Assembly: GCF_035920365.1 (NCBI RefSeq)
Contig: NZ_CP109150.1
Coordinates: 4,712,001 to 4,776,000, forward strand
Reading direction: 5' to 3'
Length of the DNA stretch: 64,000 nt
Source of the DNA: Micromonospora sp. NBC_01740
Lineage (GTDB): Bacteria; Actinomycetota; Actinomycetes; Mycobacteriales; Micromonosporaceae
Shown: positions 11,147 to 30,714 of the stretch, one piece after another
How the letters are laid out: each line of letters begins with the position of its first letter
Position numbering within the stretch: the stretch's first letter is position 1
Notes under the pieces: model-generated
What the model was told of the DNA's origin: nothing
Database searches by the model: none
Seen by the model: the letters and a program-made list of their open reading frames with translations, nothing else
Program-made: the position numbers and the translations under genes

Positions 11147-11630
11147 CGCCGTCACCCTGTCCGAGCTGCGCGAACATCCCCTCGGGTCCTGCCGGGCGTC
11201 GAAGGCGCCCAGGCTGTGGCCGAAAGGCCGCATCGATTGCGGCGGTGCGGTCGTCGCTGCCGGCGTGCTGACCTAGCCCGTCACCCTGGTACTGCCGTGA
11301 GTGGGGACATCTTCCTGACCGGCGATCCTGCTCATCGGGGTTGAACGCGCGTGCGGGCCGCAGGGGCGGAGCGCACGCGCAGTTCCCTCGACGCCCTGTT
11401 CGGCGAACATCTGCACACCTCCTCGACCATCCGCACCGCTCGCTCCCGCAGCACTGAGGATTCGATTCCGTTTCTGCTGTCTGGCGGTTCCTCCGAATCC
11501 GGGAAGTCTCTCCAGGAGCCGGGACGGTACACAGCAGACAGCCCGCGCTCGGGTCGATCGTCGTGACGCGCCCTCGTGAAAGGGGTGGGCAGTCGGAGTG
11601 TTGACACCGGCGAGGAGGGTGCTCCAGAGT
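11147..11630. other. Gene-free stretch after metH
   Basis: No intact gene. The stretch holds an IS3-like coding scar on the minus strand (11398-11480) and, towards its right end, TTGACA (11601-11606), the likely -35 of the following LamG gene. Base composition is less extreme here than in neighbouring genes, consistent with non-coding or decayed sequence. Confidence 0.5.
11398..11480 (-). pseudogene. IS3-family OrfA N-terminal scar
   Basis: A minus-strand reading frame contains SRNGIESSVLRERAVRMVEEV, which resembles the start of IS3-family transposase subunit A (pattern PPELRERAVRMV). The similarity ends after about 25 residues and no helix-turn-helix or DDE catalytic domain follows, so only a fragment remains. 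It sits at the left edge of the accessory amino-sugar locus, compatible with past transposition there. The match is short and could be chance. Confidence 0.35.
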
Positions 11631-16846: not shown

Positions 16847-18628
16847 TCAGATGAAGATCGTGCGGGCCGGGTCGAGGAAGTCGGTCGCGATGACCTGGGC
16901 GGCGCCGTACGGCATGGTGTCGAAGCCCCTGTAGTTGTGCCAGGCCTTGATCTGCCCGTCGGTCTGTATCAGCGCGATCTCGGAGCGGCCGTCGTCGTTG
17001 AGATCCATGAACCGCACCCTCGCGGGGTCGGTGAACCCGGCCGCGATGACGACGGTGTAGCCGTACGGCGAGGCGGCGAAGCCGAGGTCGTTGTGCCAGG
17101 CCTTGATCTGGCCCTCGGTCTGGATCAGGGCGATCTCGGACCGGCCGTCATCGTCCAGGTCGGTGAACACGGTCCGGGTCGGGTCGGTGAATCCGGTCGC
17201 GATGACGACGGAGTTCCCGTACGGCGAGGCGGCGAAGCCGAGGTCGTTGTGCCAGGCCCTGATCTGGCCGTCGGCCTGGATCTGGATCAGCTCGGACCTC
17301 CCGTCGTTGTCCAGGTCGGCGAGGCGTACCCGGGTCGGGTCGGTGAATCCGGTCGCGATGACGACGGAGTTCCCGTACGGCGAGGCGGCGAAGCCGAGGT
17401 CGTTGTGCCAGGCCCTGATCTGGCCGTCGGCCTGGATCTGGATCAGCTCGGACCTCCCGTCGTCGTCGAGGTCGGCGAAGCGCACCCGGGCCGGGTCGGT
17501 GAAGGAGGTCCCGATGACCGCGGCGGCGCCGTACGGCATGTTGTCGAAGCCCTTGTAGTTGTGCCAGGCCTTGATCTGCCCGTCGGCCTGGACCAGGGCG
17601 ATCTCGGCGCGGCCGTTGCCGTCGAGCGAGGACTTGCGGCTGCCGCCCTGCACCGGGAGGCCGTTGACCCAGCGGAGGTTGATCGAGTACATGTGCCTGC
17701 TGCCGTCGGCGACCGCCGCGTGCATCACGACCTTGTCGCCGCCGCCCAGCCCGTCCTGGGCCGTCACGACGTCCGCGCCACCCGGACCGCAGAGTCCCGT
17801 GTCGGCCTGGGTCATGAAGGCGTTCGGCGCCGGCGTCCAGGGGCCGATGACCGTCGGCGCCGTGGCGTACGACGTGTAGTAGCCGCAGCTGGCGAAGGAC
17901 CCACCGGAGTAAAAGAGCACCATCTTGTCGTCACGCTGGACCAGGTCCGGCGCCTCGATGATCTGGCCTGCCGCGACGGTCAGCATTGCCGTCGTCGGAC
18001 CGACCAGGGCGGTGCCGTTGTTGGTGACCTGGCTGACCCAGAGCGTGGACGGCCGGTTGATGGCGTTGCCGTCGTTCTTCCAGGTGAGGTAGCGCGTTCC
18101 GTTCCGCGCGACGAAGGTGTTCGCGTCGATCGCGCCGCCCTGGCTGAGGGGGCAGATGAGCGGCCCCGATCCGTAGGGCACGAACCCACCGAGCGGCGAG
18201 GACGCGAGCGCCACACCGATGCACTGACGGCCAGAGGCGGCGTCCTGGGCCGTGTAGGTGAGGGTCAGACTGCCGTCAGGGTTGGGGTGCACGTCGGGTG
18301 CCCAGGTTCTGCCGGCGACGGCCCAGCTGCCGGGTCCGCCCGGCATCGCGTCACCGAGGACCTGCCACGGCCCGTCGATGGTGGGCGCGCTGGCCACCGG
18401 GAGGTGCCTGAAGTCGTTGGTGGCGTAGGCGTACCAGGTCTGGCCGATGCGGACCACGTCCGGGTCTGCGAACCCTTGTGCGATGAGCTTTCTGGGACCT
18501 TCGGCTACCGCGGTGACGGCACTCGGGCCCGCCGCGACCGGCGCGGCCGGCACGACGAGGGCGACGGAGGCAAGCGCTGCGAGCATGGCCGCGTGGGCCT
18601 GGCCGCGGCGGATGGGCGGGATACGCAT
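16847..18628 (-). CDS. Secreted GH43-like glycosidase with FG-GAP-type repeats
   Basis: A 593-residue exported protein. The signal peptide ends near residue 34. Residues 45-320 look like a five-bladed propeller glycosidase of the GH43 type, with the three expected acidic positions: Asp55 in FADPDVV (base), an Asp in GGAIDANTF, and Glu in IIEAPDL (acid). Family members act on arabinose- or xylose-containing glycans, but specificity cannot be read here. Residues 335-593 consist of five tandem repeats of about 52 residues, each with D(L/N)(D/N)(D/N)DGRSE and GQI(K/R)AWHN, an FG-GAP/VCBS-type calcium-binding propeller probably used for glycan binding. Start ATG 18628 has GGGAG upstream; a dre-like operator lies 47 bases further up. 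It is divergent from the GH84 gene. Confidence 0.75.
   Translation of the reverse strand: MRIPPIRRGQAHAAMLAALASVALVVPAAPVAAGPSAVTAVAEGPRKLIAQGFADPDVVRIGQTWYAYATNDFRHLPVASAPTIDGPWQVLGDAMPGGPGSWAVAGRTWAPDVHPNPDGSLTLTYTAQDAASGRQCIGVALASSPLGGFVPYGSGPLICPLSQGGAIDANTFVARNGTRYLTWKNDGNAINRPSTLWVSQVTNNGTALVGPTTAMLTVAAGQIIEAPDLVQRDDKMVLFYSGGSFASCGYYTSYATAPTVIGPWTPAPNAFMTQADTGLCGPGGADVVTAQDGLGGGDKVVMHAAVADGSRHMYSINLRWVNGLPVQGGSRKSSLDGNGRAEIALVQADGQIKAWHNYKGFDNMPYGAAAVIGTSFTDPARVRFADLDDDGRSELIQIQADGQIRAWHNDLGFAASPYGNSVVIATGFTDPTRVRLADLDNDGRSELIQIQADGQIRAWHNDLGFAASPYGNSVVIATGFTDPTRTVFTDLDDDGRSEIALIQTEGQIKAWHNDLGFAASPYGYTVVIAAGFTDPARVRFMDLNDDGRSEIALIQTDGQIKAWHNYRGFDTMPYGAAQVIATDFLDPARTIFI
17181..17492 (-). 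repeat. Two near-identical 156-bp units in the FG-GAP region
   Basis: The units 17181-17336 and 17337-17492 are identical over roughly their first 125 bases and differ only near the end. The other repeat units of the same gene are clearly more diverged. This indicates recent duplication or gene conversion inside the repeat domain. Confidence 0.8.
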
Positions 18629-18674
18629 GGCGATCTCCCTTCGGGGTCGGCCGTCGATGTCCACGGCACGACCA

Positions 18675-18824: not shown

Positions 18825-19053
18825 CGGCCACAACCGATCCCACGCGCGGATGCCAGCCCGGCCCGGACGATCCTCCGGGAGCCCCTTTCGCGCGGCCGTC
18901 GGCTCCGACCCCGACGGCCGGCCTCGTCCCTGCTGACTCGACCAGACCGGCGGTTGCCATGTCGGCCGGTCCTCGCGGTGGTCCGCTCACCGCACGCCAC
19001 GCCGGACCCTTTACGGAACCACGGCTGGCCCATATCGCATGAGTGGAGGTTCG

Positions 19054-22000
19054 ATGTTTCTGTTGCGCTCGTTTCGCGGCTGTCGCCGCACCGGCGTGTT
19101 GGCCGGATCGGTCGTGCTCGCCGTTGGCCTGGTGAACCCCGTGCCGGCTCGGGGGGAGGCCCAGGCCCCTGATCGGGTGGGCGTGGCGCGCGTCCTTCCG
19201 ACGCCGCAGCGCGTGCAGGCGCGTGCGGGATCGGTCGTCCTGCCCGACCACGTCGACGTCGTCGCGGGTGCGGCAGCCGATCCGGCCGCCCGGCAGTCTC
19301 TCGTGGACGTGCTCGACGCGCGCGGGGTCACCGCCAGGGTCGTCGGAAGCGCGGACATGTCGACATCGCGTCCGGTGATCCTCCTCGGCGGCCCGAACGA
19401 GACGTCGGCGAGCGTCGCCGCGCTGAGTGCCCTCGGGGTGCAGGGGCCAGCGGGACTGCCCGGTGAGGGGTACGTGCTGGCGGCCGGGCACGATCGGCTC
19501 GGGCGACCGCGGATCGTCCTCGCGGGGGTGGACGGCGCGGGCACCTTCTACGCGGTCCAGTCGTTGCGTCAGCTGCTCGTGTCGCGAGGCGCCCGGGTGG
19601 CCGTCGACGGCGTGGCGGTGCGCGACTGGCCGGGTTACCGGATCCGTGGGGGCATGGAGTCGTTCTACGGACCCGTGTGGTCGCAGGAGGACCGGCGCTC
19701 GCAGATCGAGTTCCTGGCCCGGCACAAGATGAACCAGTTCTTCTACGGGCCGGCGGACGACCTGCGTACCGGATCGCACTGGGACTCCCTGTACGACGAG
19801 GCGGAACTGGGCCGGTTGAAGGAGATCCTCGACCTGGCGACGTCCCGTCATGTCGATTTCGTGTACCGGATCTCGCCGGAGGCGCCCCTGGCGCCGGGCA
19901 GGGGGATCTGCCACGTACGCGACACCGATCGGGCCAAGTTGCTGGCGCGTCTGGCGCAGTTGTGGGAGATCGGGGTCCGCAGCTACGTCATCGCCTGGGA
20001 CGACGTGTCCGGAAACTTCGCGTGCCAGGAGGACCGGGACGCCTACCAGGGCGATCCGTCGCCGCTCGCGGCGGCCCAGGCCGGGGTCACCAACCTGGTC
20101 CAACGCGAGTTCATCGAGAAGCGCCCCGGCGCCAGCCGCATGGTGACGGTGCCGACGGAGTACTGGGGCATGACGCCCACGCCGTACAAGAACCGGTTCG
20201 ACGAGTTGCTCAGCACCGAGGTCGACCTCTACTGGACGGGCTCGGAGGTGGTCTCGCCGCGCATCACCGAGGACGACCTGCGGGCCGCTCAGGGCGTCTG
20301 GCCGCGGCACCGGATCATGATCTGGGACAACTACCCGGTCAACGACTACAGCCCCAACCGACTCCTGCTGGGCCCACTGGTGAACCGCGACGCCGGCATG
20401 GCGGACGACGTCCTGGGCATCTCGTTCAACGGACTCGTCCAGCACCAGGAGGCCTCGCAGATCCCACTCGGCACGCAGGCCGACTACGCCTGGAACCCCG
20501 GGGCCTACGACGCCGAGCGCTCATGGACGCGGACTCTCGAGATCATCGGCGGCGACGCGTACGCGCAGCTGCGACTCTTCGCGGAGAACAACAAGGCCAG
20601 CGCCCTGGACAACACCGCGCGGCCCCAGTTCGCCGCGCTCGTCAACCGGCTCATCGCCGACTACTCGGCGGGCCGAGCGGTGGACGCCCAGCTCGACCAG
20701 CTCGACCGCGAGCTGCGCCGTCTGGAGGAACTCCCCACCACGCTGCGGGCGCAGCTAGACAACCCTCTGCTGCTCAAGCAGATCGAGCCCTGGCTGGACC
20801 GGGTCGGCACGACCGGCCAGGCGGGCCGGGCGGCGCTGGCGATCCTGCGGGCGCAGGACCGGGGGAACGGCGAAGCCGCCTGGCTGGCCCGGCGGGAGCA
20901 GGCGCGTGCCCGCGGCATCCTCGACAGGACATCGCACCAGATCAGCCCCGGCCCGGTCGACGAACTGCTCAGCTTCGCGGCCGCGCAGAGCGACGGCTAC
21001 ATCGGCGACCGCTGGTACGGCGACCTCGGGGCCCCCACGGGCCTACCGGCTGCCGCCCAGGGGTCCGCGCTGGGCAACCTGACCGACCGGCGCGACGACA
21101 CGGCCTACGTCGCGGCCGGCAAGCCGCAGGACGGCGACGCGATCACGGTTGCGATCACCAAGCCGCACCGGCTGTCGGCGGTGACCGTGGTGCAGGACGC
21201 GACCGCTCCCGCCGACGGCGTGATCCAGGCGCTGGTCGACGGCGCCTGGGTGGATCTCGGACCGCTCGCTGACGGGTTCACCAAGGTGCCGGCGGCGGAC
21301 CTCTCGGCCGGCGCGGTGCGGATCCGGTGGGCGTCGGGCAGCGCGGCCCCGCGCGTCTACGAGATCGTCCCGCACTACTCCGACGTGTTCAGCGGTGCCG
21401 TCTCGGTCGATCCGCCCGGGTCGCTGATCGCGCCGGGGGAGACGAAGCGGTTCCAGGTCGCCGTCGAGGTGTTCGCGGATCACCGGCTCAGTGGACGGGT
21501 GACCGCCACCGGCCCGGACGGCTGGACCGTCGACCCGGCGACGCAGGTGTTCCGTGCCCGGCCGGATGGCCGGACCATCGTCGCGAGCGTGCCGGTGAAG
21601 GTGAGCGTACCGGCCGGCGCGGAGCCGGGGCGCCACCAGGTCACGGTGGCCTTCAACGAGGACGGCGCGCCCCCGGTGAAGGTGTCGCTGCCGATCCTGG
21701 TCGGGCAGCAGAGCTACCCGAACCTCGTGACCGGGGCGGACCCGGCCGGCTACTGGCGCCTCGGCGACCCGGCCGGCTCAAGCACCGCCGTGGACAGCTC
21801 CGCCAGCGGACGGAACGGGACCTACCTCGCCGGCGCCCAGCCGGTCGCCGAGGGCGCGATCACCGGTGACCGGGCGGCGGACCTCTCCGCCGGCTACATC
21901 GAGGCGCCGCGAGGCCCGCGGACCGACCTTCAGGGCGCCTTCACGTTGGAGGCGTGGGTGAAGCTCGACAGGCTCGCCCCGGCGCCGGGGCAGGCGGTCA

Positions 22001-22377
22001 TCGAGAGCTACTCCGGGCCGGCGGTCAACGGTTACGCCCTGCGGGTGACCGACGGCGTCCTGCAGGCGTGGTCGCTCGGCGCCGCCGGGAAGGGGCACGG
22101 CCTCGTGACCGGCCGTACCCGGCTGACGGTCGACGAGTGGCACCACGTCGCCGCCGTCTTCGACGGATCGCGACTGACCGTGTACCTCGACGGCGTCGCG
22201 GACAACAGCGTCGCGACGTCGGTGCCGCCCGGCAGCGGTACGGCGAGCGTCAAGCTCGGTGGCCGTGGGGACGACACGTCCCAGCGGTTGCAGGGTGACC
22301 TCGACGAGGCGGCGATCTACGACCGCGCCCTGACGGCAGCCGAAATCGAGGCGCACCATCTCACCGGTCTGCGCTGA
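19054..22377 (+). CDS. Secreted GH84 beta-N-acetylglucosaminidase with LamG domain
   Basis: A 1,107-residue exported enzyme that removes terminal beta-linked GlcNAc (the O-GlcNAcase/NagJ family). The signal peptide covers about residues 1-32. Residues 40-175 fit the GH20b-like N-terminal domain (VLPTPQRV). The catalytic barrel begins near residue 190 (YRIRGGMESFYGPVWS) and carries the paired catalytic aspartates Asp316-Asp317 in AWDDVSG, then WDNYPVND. A helical region and a galactose-binding-like region follow. Residues 780-890 are a NEW3-like sandwich and residues 890-1107 a LamG domain. Start 19054 is chosen because GGAGG lies five bases upstream; ATG 19039 lacks this. It is divergent from the GH43-like gene and its stop is 19 bases from that of the convergent regulator gene. 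Confidence 0.88.
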   Translation: MFLLRSFRGCRRTGVLAGSVVLAVGLVNPVPARGEAQAPDRVGVARVLPTPQRVQARAGSVVLPDHVDVVAGAAADPAARQSLVDVLDARGVTARVVGSADMSTSRPVILLGGPNETSASVAALSALGVQGPAGLPGEGYVLAAGHDRLGRPRIVLAGVDGAGTFYAVQSLRQLLVSRGARVAVDGVAVRDWPGYRIRGGMESFYGPVWSQEDRRSQIEFLARHKMNQFFYGPADDLRTGSHWDSLYDEAELGRLKEILDLATSRHVDFVYRISPEAPLAPGRGICHVRDTDRAKLLARLAQLWEIGVRSYVIAWDDVSGNFACQEDRDAYQGDPSPLAAAQAGVTNLVQREFIEKRPGASRMVTVPTEYWGMTPTPYKNRFDELLSTEVDLYWTGSEVVSPRITEDDLRAAQGVWPRHRIMIWDNYPVNDYSPNRLLLGPLVNRDAGMADDVLGISFNGLVQHQEASQIPLGTQADYAWNPGAYDAERSWTRTLEIIGGDAYAQLRLFAENNKASALDNTARPQFAALVNRLIADYSAGRAVDAQLDQLDRELRRLEELPTTLRAQLDNPLLLKQIEPWLDRVGTTGQAGRAALAILRAQDRGNGEAAWLARREQARARGILDRTSHQISPGPVDELLSFAAAQSDGYIGDRWYGDLGAPTGLPAAAQGSALGNLTDRRDDTAYVAAGKPQDGDAITVAITKPHRLSAVTVVQDATAPADGVIQALVDGAWVDLGPLADGFTKVPAADLSAGAVRIRWASGSAAPRVYEIVPHYSDVFSGAVSVDPPGSLIAPGETKRFQVAVEVFADHRLSGRVTATGPDGWTVDPATQVFRARPDGRTIVASVPVKVSVPAGAEPGRHQVTVAFNEDGAPPVKVSLPILVGQQSYPNLVTGADPAGYWRLGDPAGSSTAVDSSASGRNGTYLAGAQPVAEGAITGDRAADLSAGYIEAPRGPRTDLQGAFTLEAWVKLDRLAPAPGQAVIESYSGPAVNGYALRVTDGVLQAWSLGAAGKGHGLVTGRTRLTVDEWHHVAAVFDGSRLTVYLDGVADNSVATSVPPGSGTASVKLGGRGDDTSQRLQGDLDEAAIYDRALTAAEIEAHHLTGLR

Positions 22378-22396: not shown

Positions 22397-23170
22397 TCAG
22401 CCGCCCTGGGACGGGGGGCTGACGTGCATCTGGATGGCGTACCGGTCGCCGCGGTAGAGCGAGCGGCCGTACTCCACGACCTTGCCCATGTTGTCGACCG
22501 AGATGCGCTCTATCAGGAACGCCGGGGTGTCCTCGCCGACTTCGAGCCGTTTCGCCTCGGTGCCGGTCAGCCGGGCGATGGTGACGGTCTGCCGGGCCGA
22601 TTCGAGCCGCACCCCGAAGACACGGCCCAGAACCTCGTACAGCGAGTCGTCGCGCTCCATCACCTTCAGCAGGCTGGGGAACCGTGCCGCGGCGAGGTTC
22701 GTCCGCTCCAACGCCATCGGGATGCCGTCCGCCGTGCGGATCCGCTCGATGTAGTGGGTCGGGTCGCCCGGGGCGATGTCGAGGTTGGCGGCGACCTGGC
22801 GGGCGGCCGGGCGGGTGCGGGCGCGGTACGACTTGGCGCCCGGTGTCATGCCGCGCATCCGCATGTCCTCGCTGAACGAGCGGAAGATCTCCGAGTGGGT
22901 CAGCGTGGGGTGCTGCACGAAGGTCCCACGCCCGGGCACGCGCCGGACCATTCCCTTCGACTCCAGCGCGTCGATGGAGCCCCGGACGGTCATCCGGGCG
23001 ACTCCGAACCGTTCGGCGAGGACCCGCTCCGAGGGGAGCAGCGCACCGTCCCGCGAGTTCAGGACCATGGCGGTGAGGACGTCCCTGATGTGCTCGCCCT
23101 TGCCGCCGTTGCGCTCCGCCGGCAGGGACTCAAGGGCCCCGTCGCTCGGCTCATGTCGCGTCCTTGGCAC
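22397..23170 (-). CDS. DasR-like GntR-family repressor
   Basis: A 257-residue HutC-subfamily regulator, close in length to Streptomyces DasR (254). Residues 25-90 form the winged helix (LLPSERVLAERFGVARMTVRGSIDALESKGMVRRVPGRGTFV). Residues 100-255 form a UTRA domain, which in DasR binds GlcN-6-P or GlcNAc-6-P. GTG 23170 is preferred because GGAAGGAG precedes it; a TTG at 23215 would also be in frame. It is divergent from the sugar-importer operon, and the shared 160-base region carries a dre-like site inside the importer promoter. Four such sites in this locus make it the likely local repressor. Orthology to DasR itself is inference; a paralogue with a different amino-sugar effector is possible. 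Confidence 0.8.
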   Translation of the reverse strand: MPRTRHEPSDGALESLPAERNGGKGEHIRDVLTAMVLNSRDGALLPSERVLAERFGVARMTVRGSIDALESKGMVRRVPGRGTFVQHPTLTHSEIFRSFSEDMRMRGMTPGAKSYRARTRPAARQVAANLDIAPGDPTHYIERIRTADGIPMALERTNLAAARFPSLLKVMERDDSLYEVLGRVFGVRLESARQTVTIARLTGTEAKRLEVGEDTPAFLIERISVDNMGKVVEYGRSLYRGDRYAIQMHVSPPSQGG

Positions 23171-23248
23171 GAACCAGTTCTCCTTCCTACGCAATTCAAG
23201 CCATCGTACGGGCAAACGCCCGGACGGCTGGTGAGGTCGGCGTAACCG

Positions 23249-23278
23249 TTGACCTCCGGTCTATACCAGTATTAGCCT
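23249..23278 (+). promoter_or_regulatory. Importer promoter with DasR-type operator d
   Basis: TTGACC (23249-23254) and TAGCCT (23273-23278) are 18 bases apart, and the palindromic CCGGTCTATACCAGTATT (23256-23273) fills the space between them. A repressor bound there would block RNA polymerase. Transcription would start about 45 bases before the ATG at 23331. Confidence 0.65.
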
Positions 23279-23330
23279 CGGCTGGTCCGCCACGTCCAGC
23301 GGGGTGGCGGCCACGACGATCGGAGATGCG

Positions 23331-24602
23331 ATGCCCAGAAGACGCGGTGTGCTGGGGGCGGCAGCGCTGCTCGCCATCACCCTTACTGCGTGTGCGCCAG
23401 GCAGCGGGGACGGCGGCGACGACGCCGTCAACCTGAAGGTCTGGGGCTGGCGGCAGGAGGATGTCGCGGCATACAACAAGATCTTCCAGATCTACGAGAA
23501 GGCCCATCCGGGCGTGACGGTGGAGTACCTGCCCTACAAGAACACCGAGTACGACACGATCCTCAAGACCGGCCTCACCGACTCCAGCGGCCCCGACGTC
23601 GCGCAGCTGCGCTCCTACGGGCTGCTCCAGCCGCTGGTCGCCGCCGGCAGCCTGGTGCCCCTCGACGACCAGGTCGACAAGCTCGGCGGCTTCCCGAAGC
23701 CGGTCCTCGACGGCGCGAAGGGCGAGAAGGACGGGCGCGTCTACGGCGTTCCGTTCGCGCTCCAGACCCTGCACGTCATCTACAACAAGAAGATCTTCGC
23801 CGACAACGGCATCGCCGCCCCCACCACGTGGGCGGACATGATCGCGGGCTTCGACAAGCTCAAGAAGGCCGGCGTCACCCCGCTGGCGAACACCGTCACC
23901 GACAAGTGGATGCTCCCGATCGAGCAGGAGATCTTCGGCGCCACGACGTACGGCGGCCCCGACTACCTGACCAGGATGCTCGACGGCTCGGCGAAGTTCA
24001 CCGGCACGCCCTGGGTGAACTCCCTCGAGGCGTGGAAGAGCACCCAGAAGTACTGGCCGGCGCAGGCGTCCGGGGTGAGCTACGCGGACGCGCAGGCACT
24101 CTTCACCTCCGGCCGGGCCGCCGCGTTCCCCGGCGGCGTGTGGGAGATCGCCGGGTTCAAGAAGGCCAATCCGCAGCTGGACCTGGGCATCTTCAACGTG
24201 CCGCCCGCGCCCGGCGCGGCGGTCGACAAGACGCTGGTTCCCGGCTACGTCGACGGGTCGTTCGGCGTCTCGGCGAAGTCGCCCCGGCGGGACGCGGCTC
24301 TGGAACTCGTGCGGTGGATGGCGACCGAGGAGTTCGGCCGCGCCCTGGCCACCGAGCTCCACCAGATCTCCGCGGTGCCGGGCGTCCAGCCGCAGGACGA
24401 ACTGCTGGCCCAGGCACTCCGGGAATACCAGGCGAACCCGAGTCCGTACGTCACCTACGCGTACTTCTCCGGCGGCACACCCACCGGCTGGGACCTCGCC
24501 TCCGAGGCGTTCTCCGACTACGTCCTCGGTCGACGCAGCGCCGCTGACACGGCCGCCCACGTCCAACGAGGGGTCGATCAGTGGTTCCGGCCCAAGAACT
24601 GA
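23331..24602 (+). CDS. Sugar ABC transporter substrate-binding lipoprotein
   Basis: A 423-residue extracellular solute-binding protein of family 1, anchored to the membrane through a lipobox (ITLTAC, Cys about 22). The mature part has the family's VNLKVWGWRQEDVAAYNK opening, YNKKIFADNGIAAPTTWADM, and a Trp-rich C-terminal lobe. It would deliver an oligosaccharide or aminosugar to the two downstream permeases. Start ATG 23331 follows GGAG with six bases between. It is the first gene of a six-gene operon under dre-like site d. The gene overlaps the first permease by 22 bases. Substrate is inferred from neighbours as a GlcNAc-containing sugar. Confidence 0.85.
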   Translation: MPRRRGVLGAAALLAITLTACAPGSGDGGDDAVNLKVWGWRQEDVAAYNKIFQIYEKAHPGVTVEYLPYKNTEYDTILKTGLTDSSGPDVAQLRSYGLLQPLVAAGSLVPLDDQVDKLGGFPKPVLDGAKGEKDGRVYGVPFALQTLHVIYNKKIFADNGIAAPTTWADMIAGFDKLKKAGVTPLANTVTDKWMLPIEQEIFGATTYGGPDYLTRMLDGSAKFTGTPWVNSLEAWKSTQKYWPAQASGVSYADAQALFTSGRAAAFPGGVWEIAGFKKANPQLDLGIFNVPPAPGAAVDKTLVPGYVDGSFGVSAKSPRRDAALELVRWMATEEFGRALATELHQISAVPGVQPQDELLAQALREYQANPSPYVTYAYFSGGTPTGWDLASEAFSDYVLGRRSAADTAAHVQRGVDQWFRPKN

Positions 24603-25531
24603 CGGTCCGTCCTGCCCGGCGGTCACGCCGCCGGGCGGGACGGGTCTCGGCAGGGTGGATCACGACCTTCTGCCTGCCGGCCCTCGCGCTCTACGGCCTC
24701 TTCGTCGTGGTGCCGCTCGTCACCGCCTTCTACTACGGGCTGTTCCACTGGGACGGCACCCGGCAGGGGGAGTTCGTCGGGATCGGCAACTACCAGGAGG
24801 TTCTCGCCCGCTATCCGTTACGCGACGAGATCCCCGCCGCGCTGGGGCACAACGTCCTCTTCTTCGTCGGCACCATGGCGATCCAGAACACCGTCGGACT
24901 GGGCCTGGCGGTGCTCCTGCACCGCAATCCCTGGGGCAAGCGGCTGTTCCAGACGCTCTTCTCGCTTCCCTACCTGATCAGCCCGCTGATCGTCGGGTAC
25001 ATCTGGTCGCTCCTGCTGAGCCCCACCTTCGGCCCGATCAACTTCGCGCTCCGCGCGGTCGGCCTGGACGCATGGGCGCGTCCCTGGCTCGGTGAGCCGG
25101 ACCTCGCCCTGCCCGTACTGATCCTGGTCAACGCCTGGCAGTGGATCGGCGGACCGATGCTCATCTTCGGCGCCGCCCTGGGCGGCATCCCCCAGGAGCT
25201 GGAGGAGGCGGCCGCGATGGACGGCGCGTCCGCGACCCGGGCGTTCTGGAGCATCCGGTTCCCGCTCCTGATGCCGGCGGTCGGCGTCATCACCGTGCTG
25301 ACGTTCATCGGGTGCTTCAACATCTTCGACCTCGTCTACGCGCTGGGCGGCTCCGACGGCGGACCCGGCGGCGCGATGGACGTGCTCGGCCTGCTCTACT
25401 ACCGGACTGCCTTCCAGGGCGGCAGCAACGCGATCGGAGAGTCCTCGGCGTTGGCCATGCTCATCTTCGTGTTCATCTTCGGGGTCTCCCTAGGCCTGGA
25501 GCGGGTGCTGCGCCGCCGGGAGGTCCACTAG
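24581..25531 (+). CDS. Sugar ABC transporter permease 1
   Basis: A 316-residue inner-membrane permease of the MalF/UgpA type with about six transmembrane helices. The cytoplasmic EAA loop EEAAAMDGASATRAFW (about residues 207-222) would contact the ATPase. The N-terminal 25 residues are Arg-rich and cytoplasmic. GTG 24581 has GAGGGG upstream and overlaps the lipoprotein gene. The next permease starts directly after the TAG stop. The operon has no ATPase; actinobacterial sugar importers commonly share one MsiK-type ATPase encoded elsewhere. Confidence 0.85.
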   Translation: MVPAQELTVRPARRSRRRAGRVSAGWITTFCLPALALYGLFVVVPLVTAFYYGLFHWDGTRQGEFVGIGNYQEVLARYPLRDEIPAALGHNVLFFVGTMAIQNTVGLGLAVLLHRNPWGKRLFQTLFSLPYLISPLIVGYIWSLLLSPTFGPINFALRAVGLDAWARPWLGEPDLALPVLILVNAWQWIGGPMLIFGAALGGIPQELEEAAAMDGASATRAFWSIRFPLLMPAVGVITVLTFIGCFNIFDLVYALGGSDGGPGGAMDVLGLLYYRTAFQGGSNAIGESSALAMLIFVFIFGVSLGLERVLRRREVH

Positions 25532-26424
<893 letters not shown>

Positions 26425-26428
<4 letters not shown>

Positions 26429-27354
26429 CGACGACGATCACCATCGACGGCGGCAAGTCGGAGCTTCGGCTGCTGCTACGCGCGGCGGCGGGCCGCCAGC
26501 TCGGCGTCGGCCCGGGCTTCTCCTACCAGCCCCACGAGGACGGCGTCGACCGGATCCTGGCCGCGGTTCGTGGCGCCGCGGCGACGATCTCCCTTCCCGA
26601 ACAGGTGGCGGGCGTGGTGGCCGGCCTGACCGGCGTGCCAGGGGAGTCGGCGGAACGCCGGCGCCTCGCCCTCGCCCTCGAACGGCAGTTCGGCGGTCCG
26701 GCCGTGGTCGTGGAGGACAGCATCCTCGCGCACGCCGGCGCTCTCGGCGGCCCCGGCGTACTGCTGTGTGTCGGGACCGGAACGACCGTGCTCGCCGTGG
26801 ACGCCGACGGCGACCACGCCCGGCTCGACGGATGGGGTCCCCACCTCGGTGACCGGGGCAGCGCGCACGCCATCGGGCTGGCCGGAATGCGCGCCGCGAC
26901 CGCGTCGTACGACCGGGTGGGGCCGGCCACCGGGCTGGCCGACCGCCTCGTCGCGGCGCTCGGCGGCGTGGACCTGGCCGCGCTGCAGCGGTACTACCGG
27001 GACCCGGCCATGATCTCGCGTACGGCGGCCTTCGCCCGCGAGGTGCTCGACGCGGCCGCCGGGGCCGACCCGGTGGCGGGCCGGATCTGCGCCGGGGCCG
27101 CGGCCGACCTCGCCGACGCGGCACAGGCGGCAACCGAACGGCTCAATCTCGGCGGGCCAGCCCGCCGGGTGTCCTTCAGCGGACGGCTGCTGACGCCGGG
27201 TAACCCTCTTCACCAGGCGCTGTCGGCCGAACTCGAGGCCAGAGGGCTGCCCCTGGTGACGCCCAGAGCGGAGCCGCTCGACGGCGGTCCGGCGCTCCTG
27301 AGCGGTGCCGCCCCCTACGCGCGCCTGCTGGCGCGCCAGGGCGGCGACGCGTGA
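26425..27354 (+). CDS. BadF/BadG-type ATPase, probable amino-sugar kinase
   Basis: A 309-residue member of the ASKHA kinase superfamily, BadF/BadG/BcrA/BcrD group, to which N-acetylglucosamine kinases belong. Phosphate-loop motifs are TIDGGKSE at the N-terminus and LCVGTGTTVL near residue 115; GWGPHLGDRGSAHAIG near residue 138 is typical of GlcNAc kinases. It would phosphorylate the imported sugar, plausibly at O6. The TTG start at 26425 overlaps the permease stop as TTGA. The next gene overlaps its stop by four bases. Sugar specificity is inference from the DasR-type control and the GH84 neighbour. Confidence 0.75.
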
Positions 27355-28595
27355 GGGCCGGGCACGGGGTGGCGCGACTCGAGGTCGTGCCGGGGGAACC
27401 CATGGGTGGGTACGCCGACCGCTCGGACGGCGTGCGGAACGTGCTCGACCCGCTGGAGGTCCATGTCGTGACCTTCGCCGACGAGGGCCACCGCTTCGCC
27501 CTGGTGGTCGCGGACCTGATCTGCGTCAACGTCGACGTCGTCGACCGGATCCGGGCCGCCATGCGAGACGTCGGCGTGCAGTCCTGCTGGGTCGCCGCCA
27601 CCCACACCCACGCGAGCCCCGAGGCGGGCTGCAGCCCTGGCGGCGACGCCACGCCACGGCACGTCGCCGACCGGCTCGAAGCCGCGTCCCTCGTGGCCGC
27701 GCGGTCTGCCGTGGCGTCCGAGCGTGCCGCCCGACTCGGCTCCGCCCGCACGCTGGTTCCCCAACTGGCCGGTCACCGTAACGTCGCTGATCCGGCTCCC
27801 CTGGACATTCCCGTCGACACCATCGTGGTCACCGCGGGCACCGAAGTGGTGGGGCTGGTCGTGGTCTCACCGGTCCACCCGACCATCCTTCCCGCCGACA
27901 ACAACCATGTGAGCGCGGACCTCAACGGCGGCATCCGCCGGGCGCTGGCCACGCCGGACCGGTGGGTGGTCGTCGCCACCGGTGCGGCCGGCGACATCAG
28001 CACCCGGCACACCCGTCAGGGGCGGGGGCTCGACGAGGCGGACCGGCTCGGCGCCTGGCTGGCCGACCGGGTCGAACCGGTGTCGCCGCGCGTCGGCGAG
28101 GGTGCGGCGCCGCCGGTACGCCCGCCGGTCGTGCGGACGGTGACGCTCGCGCCGAAGCAGCCGGCGGAACTCGACGTCGCCGTGCGTCAGACCCCGCCGC
28201 CGGGGGGCGGGAACGAACGCATCCACCGGGTCATGCAGCAGGGGCTGCGGATCGCGGCGGAACAGGCTGCCCGGCAGCGCACGGAACCGTACGTGATCGA
28301 CGTGGAGGCGGTGGACCTCGACGGCGTCACGGTCGTGGCCGTTCCCGGCGAACTGTTCCTGGAACTGGGCGAGACGATCCGGGCCGCGGCGCCGGACCAG
28401 GCACGGGACGTCGTGGTCCTCGGCTACACGAACGGCTACCTCGGCTACCTACCCGCCCGTGACACGCAGCCCTGCTACGAAACCTATGCCAGTCCGGTCA
28501 CCTCGGGCAGCAGCGAGATCGTCGTCGAGGCCGCAGTGGCGGCCGTCGCGGCGGCCGTCGGCAACCGGGACCACTCCAGGAGGATCAATGCCTGA
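27351..28595 (+). CDS. Neutral/alkaline ceramidase-like metalloamidase
   Basis: A 414-residue protein related to the catalytic domain of neutral ceramidases, zinc amidases that cleave an N-acyl bond. Candidate zinc ligands are His85/His87 in ATHTHASP, the His in VSPVHPTILPADNNH, the Glu in VPGELFLELG and the Tyr in NGYLGYLP, in the family order. It lacks a signal peptide and the C-terminal domain of true secreted ceramidases, so it should act in the cytoplasm. Many sugar operons carry such short homologues of unknown role. Sitting between a kinase and a SIS protein, it could deacetylate an amino-sugar phosphate (hypothesis). Start GTG overlaps the kinase stop; its end overlaps the next gene by eight bases. 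Confidence 0.7.
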   Translation: MRAGHGVARLEVVPGEPMGGYADRSDGVRNVLDPLEVHVVTFADEGHRFALVVADLICVNVDVVDRIRAAMRDVGVQSCWVAATHTHASPEAGCSPGGDATPRHVADRLEAASLVAARSAVASERAARLGSARTLVPQLAGHRNVADPAPLDIPVDTIVVTAGTEVVGLVVVSPVHPTILPADNNHVSADLNGGIRRALATPDRWVVVATGAAGDISTRHTRQGRGLDEADRLGAWLADRVEPVSPRVGEGAAPPVRPPVVRTVTLAPKQPAELDVAVRQTPPPGGGNERIHRVMQQGLRIAAEQAARQRTEPYVIDVEAVDLDGVTVVAVPGELFLELGETIRAAAPDQARDVVVLGYTNGYLGYLPARDTQPCYETYASPVTSGSSEIVVEAAVAAVAAAVGNRDHSRRINA

Positions 28596-29337
28596 GCCTG
28601 CCTACGCCAACATCGCCCGGACCGCACTCGAACAGGTCCTGTCAACGCAGCTCGACGCCATCGAGGCAGCGGCCGGGCTCGTCGCCGACGCCATCGCCGC
28701 CGGTGGTGTCCTGCAGGCGTTCGGGACCGGCCACTCGCGGATCGTCACCCTCGAACTCGCGGGGCGTGCCGGCGGGCTCGCCGCCGTCAGCATGCTGGCG
28801 GTCAAGGATCTCGTGATGTTCGGTGGCGCCGAGCCGGGGCCGATCCTCGATCCGACGTACGAGCGCGAGCCCGGCCTCGCCGAGCGGATCTACCAGCTCG
28901 CCGCACCCTCCGCGCACGATGCCTTCCTGATCGTCTCGAACTCCGGAATCAACGCCGCCGTCACCGAGATGGCGGTGCTGGCCCGCGAGCGCTCCCATCC
29001 GATCGTGGCGGTCACCTCACTGGCACACACTCGCTCGGCCGGTGCCCGTGCGACCCAGGGACCGCATCTCGCCGACCTGGCGGATGTGGTGATCGACAAC
29101 CAGGCGCCGGCGGGGGACGCGGCGCTGGAGATCACCCCAGGAGTTCGGATCGGGGCGGTCTCGTCGTTCACCGGAGTCCTCATCGCGCAGCTACTCACCG
29201 AACTGGTCTGCCGCCGGTTGCTGGGCCGCGACATCGACCCGCCCGTGCACGTATCCGCGAATCTCGCGCAGGGCGACGCGCACAACCGCGTCCTCTACGA
29301 GCGGTACCGCGATCAGGTCCGCCCGATCGAACCCTGA
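28588..29337 (+). CDS. SIS-domain sugar isomerase/deaminase-like protein
   Basis: A 249-residue cytoplasmic protein with a sugar isomerase (SIS) fold that binds phospho-sugars. Visible features are an N-terminal helix, the phosphate-binding FGTGHSRIV near residue 47, a SNSGINAAVTEMA loop near residue 114, and HTRSAGARATQG. It belongs to the uncharacterised group of SIS proteins near sugar transporters rather than to GlmS or MurQ. AGGAGG sits five bases before ATG 28588, and the gene is the last of the importer operon. As nagB is absent here, it may isomerise or deaminate an amino-sugar phosphate; this is untested. Confidence 0.75.
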   Translation: MPEPAYANIARTALEQVLSTQLDAIEAAAGLVADAIAAGGVLQAFGTGHSRIVTLELAGRAGGLAAVSMLAVKDLVMFGGAEPGPILDPTYEREPGLAERIYQLAAPSAHDAFLIVSNSGINAAVTEMAVLARERSHPIVAVTSLAHTRSAGARATQGPHLADLADVVIDNQAPAGDAALEITPGVRIGAVSSFTGVLIAQLLTELVCRRLLGRDIDPPVHVSANLAQGDAHNRVLYERYRDQVRPIEP

Positions 29338-29649
29338 TCGGCCGGGACGAAGGCTCCGGGGGCGTGAGCCTCCCGGTCGAGTTGGCCCTTCAAGCGGGCC
29401 GTCGACCGGCTCGGTGGGCCGGCGGATCGGTGTGAGTGGGTGCTCGCCTGGGCGTGGGATGCGGTCGCGGCACGACGGCCGTGCGACCGCACCCACGCTC
29501 AGCCGGCCAGCGGTCGGGCTCGGCGGTCCGGCGGGCCGTAGGAGGAAACCTTCAGATCTCAGATCAAGGGACGTAGACATCTTTCATGTTGTATCGATGT
29601 CCCGCTATATTGCCGAGCAGTGTCGATCTCTCCCGATGACGAGGTGCAC
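29338..29649 (+). promoter_or_regulatory. Promoter region of the secreted amidase gene
   Basis: This 312-base gap has no gene. Its last 85 bases are unusually AT-rich: TATATT at 29606-29611 is a good -10, and GACATC (29576-29581) / GATGTC (29596-29601) is an inverted repeat just upstream, a possible operator. A weak GGCTC/GAGCC stem near 29351 could end the importer operon. Confidence 0.4.
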
Positions 29650-30714
29650 ATGTTCGACAACCCGACGCTTCGGCGGCGTACCCTGTTGGCGGCCGTCGCT
29701 GGCGCCGCGGCCGTCCCCATCATCGCCGGCCCCGCGTGGGCGGCGTTGCCGAAGGTCTACATCGACCCGGGCCACGGCGGCACCGACCCCGGCGCGGTCG
29801 GCAACGGGCTGCAGGAGAAGGCCCTGACGCTCGACATCTCCCTGCAACTGCGCAACATCCTGCTGGCCAACTGGGCCGTGGACGTCCGGATGTCCCGCAC
29901 GACCGACATCACCCGCAGCCTGGCGTACCGCACCGACGACGCCAACGCGTGGGGCGCGAACCTGCTGGTGAGCGTGCACATCAACTCCGGCGGTGGCACC
30001 GGCTTCGAGAGCTACCGTTACCCGACGTCGGACGCCGCCACCGTCAATCTGCACAACGCCCTGCACCCGAGGGTGATCGGCGGCATGCGGACGATCGGTG
30101 GGGTCACCGATCGGGGGCTGAAGACCGCGAACTTCCACATGCTGCGCGAGTCGGCCATGCCCGCGGTGCTGACCGAGAACCTCTTCATCGACTCCGTCGC
30201 CGACTCGAACCTGCTCAGGCGCGCCGACTTCATCACCGCCACCGCCCGTGGCCACGCCGAGGGCATCGCCGCCTACCTCGGCCTGAGCGCCCCCAACCCG
30301 CCCACGTTCAGCACCATCGTGGACAACACCACGGCGGGACGGTTCACGGCGAGCACCAACTGGGGGACCTCCTCGTACTCCGCCCAGCGCTACGGCGCCG
30401 ACTACCGCTTCGCCAACCCCACGCTGGCCAGCGACTCCGCCTGGTTCAAGGTGAACATCCCGGCGGCCGGCAACTACCGCGTCGAGGTGCGGCACCCGGC
30501 CGACCCCGGCTACAACAGCTCGGCCCCGCACGTCGTCGTCACCGCCTCGGGCAACCGCACCGTCAACGTGGACCAGCGCTCCAGCGGCGGCGTCTGGCGC
30601 TCGCTGGGCACCTTCGGGCTGGCCGCCGGCGACCGTAACCTGGTCGCGGTCAGCCGCTGGACCAGCAGCACCGGCTACGTGGTGGCCGACGCCGTCCGGG
30701 TCACCCGGGTCTAG
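29650..30714 (+). CDS. Secreted N-acetylmuramoyl-L-alanine amidase with golvesin-type C-domain
   Basis: A 354-residue exported enzyme that cleaves the bond between MurNAc and the stem peptide. Residues 1-32 form a signal with consecutive arginines (LRRRTLL), compatible with Tat export. The Amidase_3 domain (35-215) shows the zinc site: His42 in IDPGHGG, Glu in LQEKAL, His in VSVHINSGG, and the catalytic Glu in VLTENLF. Residues 220-354 fit the golvesin C-terminal-like domain (ending YVVADAVRV), a probable binding module. ATG 29650 is preferred because GAGG precedes it and the signal begins there; GTG 29620 is also in frame. A palindromic repeat follows. Confidence 0.85.
   Translation: MFDNPTLRRRTLLAAVAGAAAVPIIAGPAWAALPKVYIDPGHGGTDPGAVGNGLQEKALTLDISLQLRNILLANWAVDVRMSRTTDITRSLAYRTDDANAWGANLLVSVHINSGGGTGFESYRYPTSDAATVNLHNALHPRVIGGMRTIGGVTDRGLKTANFHMLRESAMPAVLTENLFIDSVADSNLLRRADFITATARGHAEGIAAYLGLSAPNPPTFSTIVDNTTAGRFTASTNWGTSSYSAQRYGADYRFANPTLASDSAWFKVNIPAAGNYRVEVRHPADPGYNSSAPHVVVTASGNRTVNVDQRSSGGVWRSLGTFGLAAGDRNLVAVSRWTSSTGYVVADAVRVTRV

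Follow-up and report, generated by a model that had tools for sequence, protein, structure and literature searches.

A ceramidase-like gene and a SIS gene at the end of a sugar importer operon of Micromonospora sp. NBC_01740 encode proteins that probably act together on amino sugars, the ceramidase-like protein as a zinc-dependent amidase whose substrate would be a phosphorylated N-acyl amino sugar and the SIS protein as its NagS-like partner enzyme. The operon lies in a 64,000-nucleotide stretch (the window; G000:C1:4712001-4776000) of a single-contig 7.3-Mb genome, where genes for a solute-binding protein, two permeases, a BadF-type kinase, the ceramidase-like protein and the SIS protein follow in series at 23304-29337 (Table 1). 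The pair is a recurrent module in distant lineages, with a kinase or phosphotransferase system (PTS) nearby, and most likely adds an accessory branch to the metabolism of N-acyl-hexosamine 6-phosphates. The operon is of a known kind, amino-sugar catabolic, and is set apart by its unassigned ceramidase-SIS enzyme pair; among the matches listed in open-licence PubMed Central (PMC) for ceramidase together with sugar operons or with genes of amino-sugar metabolism, and for UPF0309, no paper links a ceramidase-family protein to amino-sugar operons or treats this pair.

Proteins of the terminal gene trio

A sequence-only reading of the window had described three overlapping genes, none of them nagK, nagA or nagB, at the end of a DasR-type importer operon. 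The coordinates and gene kinds are correct, with overlaps of 4 bp between permease and kinase, 4 bp between kinase and ceramidase-like and 8 bp between ceramidase-like and SIS genes, and all three genes have the codon bias of real genes. The second and third are indeed not nagA and nagB: the ceramidase-like protein matches no NCBIfam profile at E 0.001, NagA (TIGR00221) included, and the SIS protein matches only PF13580 in Pfam and only NF002805/UPF0309 in NCBIfam, and neither NagB (TIGR00502/PF01182) nor NagB-II (NF046059). For the kinase the claim stands in part. It is over the PF01869 cut-off (66.9 bits, cut-off 31.5) and far below that of the NagK equivalog NF046058 (51.8 bits, cut-off 370), but its closest solved relatives include kinases of N-acetylglucosamine (GlcNAc) and N-acetylmuramic acid (MurNAc), the top PDB match being the MurNAc/GlcNAc kinase 8zo3 (E 5.4e-14).

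The ceramidase-like protein is below the gathering cut-off of PF04734 (26.2 bits, cut-off 32.1), and the neutral-ceramidase fold is seen in the predicted structure of the 414-aa protein. Its zinc-site residues H85/H87, H176, E334 and Y363 are invariant in 67 aligned sequences; in a wider set position 363 differs in 21 of 108 rows, mostly in distant homologs. The zinc ligands we take to be two His, a Glu and a Tyr, by assignment to solved neutral ceramidases. Fold and zinc-site residues together uphold the earlier description of a zinc hydrolase of the ceramidase fold. The protein has no signal peptide as judged by eye only, and is without the C-terminal domain. Most ceramidase-like homologs that adjoin SIS genes share a motif, S217-T218-R219-x-x-R222 (STRxxR), whose arginines may bind phosphate, whereas those without a SIS gene mostly have other residues at these positions, for example N-A-K. 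We note also a metagenomic ceramidase-like protein (P0064) that carries a PTS HPr domain in place of its C-terminus, which may reflect a frameshift or an assembly join.

The SIS protein has PDB matches 3cvj and 9eol, the latter being NagS (SCO4393), to which it is 33% identical. NagS is the characterised branch of UPF0309 and controls GlcNAc sensing and development in Streptomyces. According to the accessible part of the published account (PMC12680351), NagS is related to MurQ and dehydrates GlcNAc 6-phosphate (GlcNAc-6P) to 6P-chromogen I, which NagA then deacetylates to an enamine/imine; mutation of H53, R64, E94 or D179 abolishes activity, and no significant binding of glucosamine 6-phosphate (GlcN-6P) is reported there. 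H53, R64, E94, D179 and N228 of NagS correspond to H49, R60, E92, D177 and N225 of the window protein. NagS orthologs are described in the same text as at least 58.7% identical among themselves, restricted to Streptomycetaceae and neighboured by dmdR1 (PMC12680351). The window protein falls outside this group, with 33% identity, a Micromonospora host, and a ceramidase-like gene and a muramoyl-alanine amidase gene as neighbours. The latter, encoding an N-acetylmuramoyl-L-alanine amidase with a golvesin C-terminal domain (window 29620-30714), starts 283 bp past the SIS gene.

Two further SIS proteins of the UPF0309 kind are encoded in the same genome, 46% (L123) and 45% (L124) identical to the window protein; the L123 gene lies between a regulator gene and ATP-binding cassette (ABC) transporter genes (both by eye), with a BadF kinase gene divergent. 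A MurQ (TIGR00274) profile search of the genome gives seven places at E <=0.001, none at the window SIS gene, and a MurNAc etherase role for the window protein is weakened by a MurQ-like gene elsewhere in the genome (301.4 bits, cut-off 302).

Recurrence of the gene pair

Gene calling is unreliable in GC-rich loci, with antisense open reading frames, and loci were rescored by homology and then with profiles on stop-to-stop frames. From 108 loci, 23 were dropped as >75% identical and then 18 of the remaining 85 for flanks <2.5 kb, leaving 67 for the context count. A SIS-family gene lies <=4 kb from 30 of 35 STRxxR homologs and from 5 of 32 without the motif (Fisher p 5.6e-9, kinship among loci ignored). 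With a wider gene set (SIS, the epimerase NanE, NagA, PTS, kinase) the counts become 33/35 and 8/32. The five loci with a SIS gene and no STRxxR are L057, L133, L134, L135 and L191. Ceramidase and SIS domains are joined in one protein in 5 of the 120 homologs listed (307 found), all from Nonomuraea, and at L021 and L029 the fusion is a single reading frame in the DNA.

A kinase gene is <=6 kb from 20 of the 30 loci with both motif and SIS gene, and nine loci carry labels for PTS genes of the mannose family: L046, L055, L058, L071, L077, L087, L096, L179 and L180 (Pfam-checked in L055 and L058). The two occur together in none of the 108 rows, at a 70-bit cut for row labels that undercounts weaker kinases such as those of L035-L038. 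NanE is near 6 of the 30 loci (over cut-off in L056), and L191 has an N-acylglucosamine 2-epimerase-family gene (PF07221). GH84 is labelled near four, the L085 label being without a Pfam check. The recurrent gene order is kinase-(NanE)-ceramidase-like-SIS, and the arrangement of kinase, ceramidase-like and SIS genes is found again in other Micromonospora. Ceramidase-like matches are present in 7 of 101 genomes in the search of relatives, in 6 of 396 across the phylum (own genome included in both) and in 22 of 397 in the family of G516; 20 regions taken from the latter set include two with a SIS gene near the homolog, one of them the L065 region again.

Individual clusters vary in content. An operon of a Bacillota metagenome-assembled genome (MAG; L055, 7329-17987) encodes PTS EIIABCD, a ceramidase-like protein, two SIS proteins, a HAD phosphatase, NagA, HPr and EI (both by eye) and NagB, and a Desulfurococcales archaeal MAG contig (L061) has a GH84-like fragment (by similarity label) and ceramidase-like, Gfo/Idh, UPF0309, GlmS and NagA genes. 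The UPF0309 cluster of L077 contains deoC (239.5 bits, over cut-off). UPF0309 genes are also found without a ceramidase-like gene, past nagE-nagA-nagB in Planococcus and past a SIS gene and nagA in Rhizobium; on Vibrio and Enterococcus plasmids no nag neighbour is seen beside the UPF0309 gene. In Listeria (L128, 2452-7732) genes for an ascorbate-type PTS, a phosphotriesterase, a creatininase-family protein and a KDGP-aldolase-family protein (166.8 bits, below the cut-off of 300) precede UPF0309, as in a sugar-acid or amino-sugar route.

These contexts bear on the alternative that the ceramidase-fold protein hydrolyses lipid amides, or lactones or esters, and sits in a sugar operon by chance. 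In favour of this, the protein shares its fold and its zinc-site residues with neutral ceramidase, but the lack of a signal peptide by eye and of the C-terminal domain, the additional STRxxR motif, the recurrent link to phosphosugar genes in unrelated lineages and the fusion to SIS make this a very improbable explanation.

Probable place of the pair in amino-sugar metabolism

The sequence-only reading had placed the genes in phosphorylated amino-sugar metabolism and had stressed their tight linkage, and both points are supported by context: the fusion, the presence of PTS or kinase, NanE and GH84. The nearest biochemical precedent is NagS followed by an amide hydrolase, and this suggests, tentatively and by analogy, a specific order in which the SIS enzyme performs an elimination and the ceramidase-fold enzyme a deacylation. 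The kinase would act after import to give an N-acyl-hexosamine 6-phosphate of the GlcNAc or N-acetylmannosamine (ManNAc) type. The SIS protein would open the ring and catalyse C2-C3 elimination through the catalytic residues of NagS, and the ceramidase-fold zinc enzyme would grip the phosphate by the STRxxR arginines and cleave the amide at C2 of the unsaturated compound so formed. The resulting enamine/imine would lose ammonia to yield a 3-deoxy-2-keto sugar 6-phosphate. The pair would thereby run as a branch beside NagA-NagB that corresponds to Streptomyces NagS followed by NagA but has a deacylase of its own. Counting for this reading are the conserved NagS catalytic residues, the association of STRxxR with SIS genes, the fusions, the kinase-or-PTS pattern, NanE, the operator-like sites before GH84, and deoC of L077 and the Listeria KDGP-aldolase-family gene, both from UPF0309 clusters.

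The distribution of nagA and nagB constrains the alternatives. The genome has nagA at G000:C1:991950-993023 (277.7 bits), directly downstream of a GlmS/GlmD-like SIS gene (L125:7093-8022; 79, 76 and 70 bits, below cut-offs), and has no PF01182-type NagB; a TIGR00502 search of it found nothing, and its PF01182 match is a 6-phosphogluconolactonase (TIGR01198, 233 bits). NagB is over cut-off in only 5 of the 101 genomes searched, so its absence here says little. NagA exceeds the curated cut-off in 28 of 32 genomes with ceramidase-like loci (for the control, in 7 of 14 genomes), a count that covers ceramidase-bearing genomes only; three of the others have NagA at 206-221 bits and one has a 23-bit fragment only. 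An amidohydrolase in L002 proved on profile check not to be NagA. NagA is over cut-off within the locus in L046, L055, L057, L058, L061, L072 and L077, and also in L191 (256.9 bits), with fragments in L066; L066 and L072 are without a SIS gene, and nagA of L061 is on the other strand. The L055 cluster has NagB over cut-off as well (310 bits). Alphaproteobacterial plasmids of Devosia, Ponticoccus and Nitratireductor have the order NagB-like, UPF0309, NagA-like, ceramidase-like, ABC; two pairs were scored, the NagA-like genes reaching 179 and 193 bits against a cut-off of 225.65 and the NagB-like genes 112 and 114 against 236.9, all below. The annotation of two of the three NagB-like genes reads 6-phosphogluconolactonase.

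The earlier proposal was that the trio replaces nagA and nagB, the kinase being followed by a GlcNAc-6P deacetylase of ceramidase fold and a GlcN-6P deaminase/isomerase of SIS fold on the way to fructose 6-phosphate. The gene order mirrors NanK-NanE-NagA-NagB, and of the two genes that were to be sought elsewhere in the genome only nagA is found, PF01182 NagB being absent. In Terrabacter (L034) a GlmS/NagB-II-like gene (198.7 bits, cut-off 430) comes after the trio, with no nagA labelled in the locus, and the replacement route fits best there and in operons with NanE. As a general role it is rejected because nagA is present in the genome and in most ceramidase-bearing genomes and is co-located in several clusters. 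NagA and NagB are clustered with the pair in L055, relatives of both are on the plasmids, UPF0309 adjoins nagA-nagB in Planococcus, and NagS, as far as the accessible text goes, does not significantly bind GlcN-6P (PMC12680351). We regard this route as improbable.

In some clusters the genes stand in linear order with NagA-NagB, which points instead to a reaction ahead of GlcNAc-6P. The starting compound, X-6P, would be an amino sugar phosphate modified by a C3 substituent or by an unusual acyl group, and the pair would convert it to GlcNAc-6P or ManNAc-6P for NagA-NagB. The ceramidase-fold enzyme would cut an amide in X, the SIS protein would remove the C3 group in the manner of MurQ, and NanE would correct C2. 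The kinship of NagS and MurQ (PMC12680351, accessible part) and the top PDB match of the kinase are consistent with this, as are NagA, the NagB of L055 and the plasmid NagB-like genes within the same clusters and the frequency of NagA in ceramidase-bearing genomes. However, no natural X is evident, the genome already has its MurQ-like gene at threshold, and the putative regulon (GH84 and GH43; phosphoesterases elsewhere) is unlike peptidoglycan degradation. We rate such an upstream step somewhat lower than elimination followed by deacylation, which is itself less likely than not. An analogy with GlcNAc-asparagine catabolism was dropped; in that pathway AsnA2 works ahead of the kinase SugK, and the accessible part of the paper names no SIS gene in the cluster (PMC6960285).

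Several observations weigh against elimination followed by deacylation and against the pairing on which it builds. NagS Ser91 is not conserved in the window SIS protein, and three UPF0309 proteins with 25.7-35.7% identity to NagS are described in the accessible text as having no or negligible GlcNAc-6P dehydratase activity (PMC12680351), so that the substrate of the window protein may differ. The operon encodes no enzyme that would use the predicted 3-deoxy product, and if the branch bypasses NagA, the presence of NagA within ceramidase-SIS clusters is difficult to account for. STRxxR is present with no SIS gene nearby in L045, L059, L066, L067 and L075; the alphaproteobacterial relatives, L057 and L191 adjoin SIS and NagA yet are without STRxxR, and in L179 and L180 PTS genes are present with SIS and STRxxR both missing. 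The operator profile described below finds no site in L048, L050 and L052 and none before the operon of L043, which confines the regulon to a single group of loci.

Elimination followed by deacylation offers a candidate role for the short ceramidase-family proteins of sugar operons and for the UPF0309 SIS family. In its most far-reaching form, which we consider unlikely and state as a proposal, the pair would be a second, deaminating exit from N-acetylhexosamine (HexNAc) catabolism that bypasses glucosamine-6-phosphate: a NagS-like lyase would make a 2,3-unsaturated HexNAc 6-phosphate, and a metalloenzyme of ceramidase fold, turned from the amides of lipids to those of phosphosugars, would remove its acyl group to give a 3-deoxy sugar phosphate. 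Such an exit would serve actinobacteria, Ktedonobacteria, Bacillota and perhaps archaea. If the pair is confirmed, the ceramidase fold gains a phosphosugar function, and models of amino-sugar metabolism in many bacteria of soil and gut would need a new step.

Operator-like sites and comparison with known systems

An operator profile was built from 15 related loci with an aligned site before the operon, and the site also precedes the operon in L017, L033 and L126. Scanning the window with the profile gives three sites in addition to that in the regulator/importer gap, at 11630, 18676 and 18807, where five base-shuffled windows gave 0, 0, 0, 1 and 0; a simpler 12-base search finds 4 sites against a mean of 1.17 in dinucleotide shuffles (2 of 100 shuffles reach 4). 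The sites at 11630, 18676, 18807 and 23253 outline, on sequence grounds, a putative GntR regulon of the LamG protein, GH43, GH84 and the importer-kinase-ceramidase-SIS operon. An operator-like site is upstream of GH84 both in the window and in L032. The first ~850 residues of the LamG/NEW3 protein are without a Pfam match, and a homolog with an operator-like site before it lies downstream of the Terrabacter operon (L034); this is a possible new glycan-active enzyme.

Table 1. Features of the importer operon and its surroundings in the window.
Feature	Position	Strand	Basis
Large apparently secreted LamG/NEW3 protein, 1439 aa	11679..15998	+	operator-like site at 11630
GH43 glycosidase, divergent from GH84 across sites 18676/18807	16847..18664	-	PF04616 112 bits
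Secreted GH84 beta-N-acetylglucosaminidase with GH20b and LamG domains	19039..22377	+	PF07555 272.8 bits; sites 18676, 18807 upstream
GntR/UTRA regulator, divergent from importer operon	22397..23215	-	PF00392 and PF07702
Operator-like site CCTCCGGTCTATACCAGTAT, regulator/importer gap	23253..23272	+	aligned site before operon in 15 related loci
Sugar ABC transporter solute-binding protein	23304..24602	+	PF01547; NgcE-type similarity far below cut-off
Two ABC permeases (24581-25531, 25532-26428)	24581..26428	+	PF00528 in each
BadF/NAGK-type sugar kinase, TTG start	26425..27354	+	PF01869 66.9 bits
Short ceramidase-fold hydrolase, 414 aa	27351..28595	+	PF04734 26.2 bits (below cut-off) and predicted structure
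SIS protein, UPF0309/NagS family	28588..29337	+	PF13580 123 bits; NCBIfam NF002805 252 bits

In L019, L021, L022 and L024 a second operator-like site stands before a gene for an apparently secreted Exo_endo_phos-type protein, and in L019 and L024 a gene for a calcineurin-like phosphoesterase comes next (Pfam was run on L019, L022, L024 and L026). This hints at a phosphodiester-containing polymer in the hosts of these four loci. Apparently secreted Exo_endo_phos proteins and calcineurin-like phosphoesterases adjoin the regulator in L019 (999-4901), L024 (2040-4914) and L026 (883-1878), and their genes occupy the regulator-side place held by GH84 in Micromonospora and Microbacterium loci.

The system resembles GntR/DasR-type GlcNAc regulons in its GntR/UTRA regulator, in a GGTCTANACC-like palindrome (the DasR consensus being the one we presume for this comparison) and in GH84 downstream of such sites, and differs in an extended half-site, ACCAGTAT, and in a target operon that is not one of canonical nag genes. 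With the nanK-nanE-nagA-nagB amino-sugar pathway it shares the logic of kinase, C2-epimerase and import, but NagA is present besides, and the pair is thus additional. Compared with the neutral ceramidases of Pseudomonas aeruginosa (2zws) and human (4wgk), the window protein has the same fold and zinc-site residues and is set apart by 18% identity, by the missing secretion signal (by eye) and C-terminal domain, by STRxxR and by an operon of phosphosugar genes. The SIS protein is of the same family as NagS (SCO4393) and keeps the five residues aligned above, and in the accessible account of NagS an amide hydrolase likewise processes the product (PMC12680351); NagS pairs with NagA, whereas the window SIS protein perhaps pairs with the ceramidase-fold enzyme.

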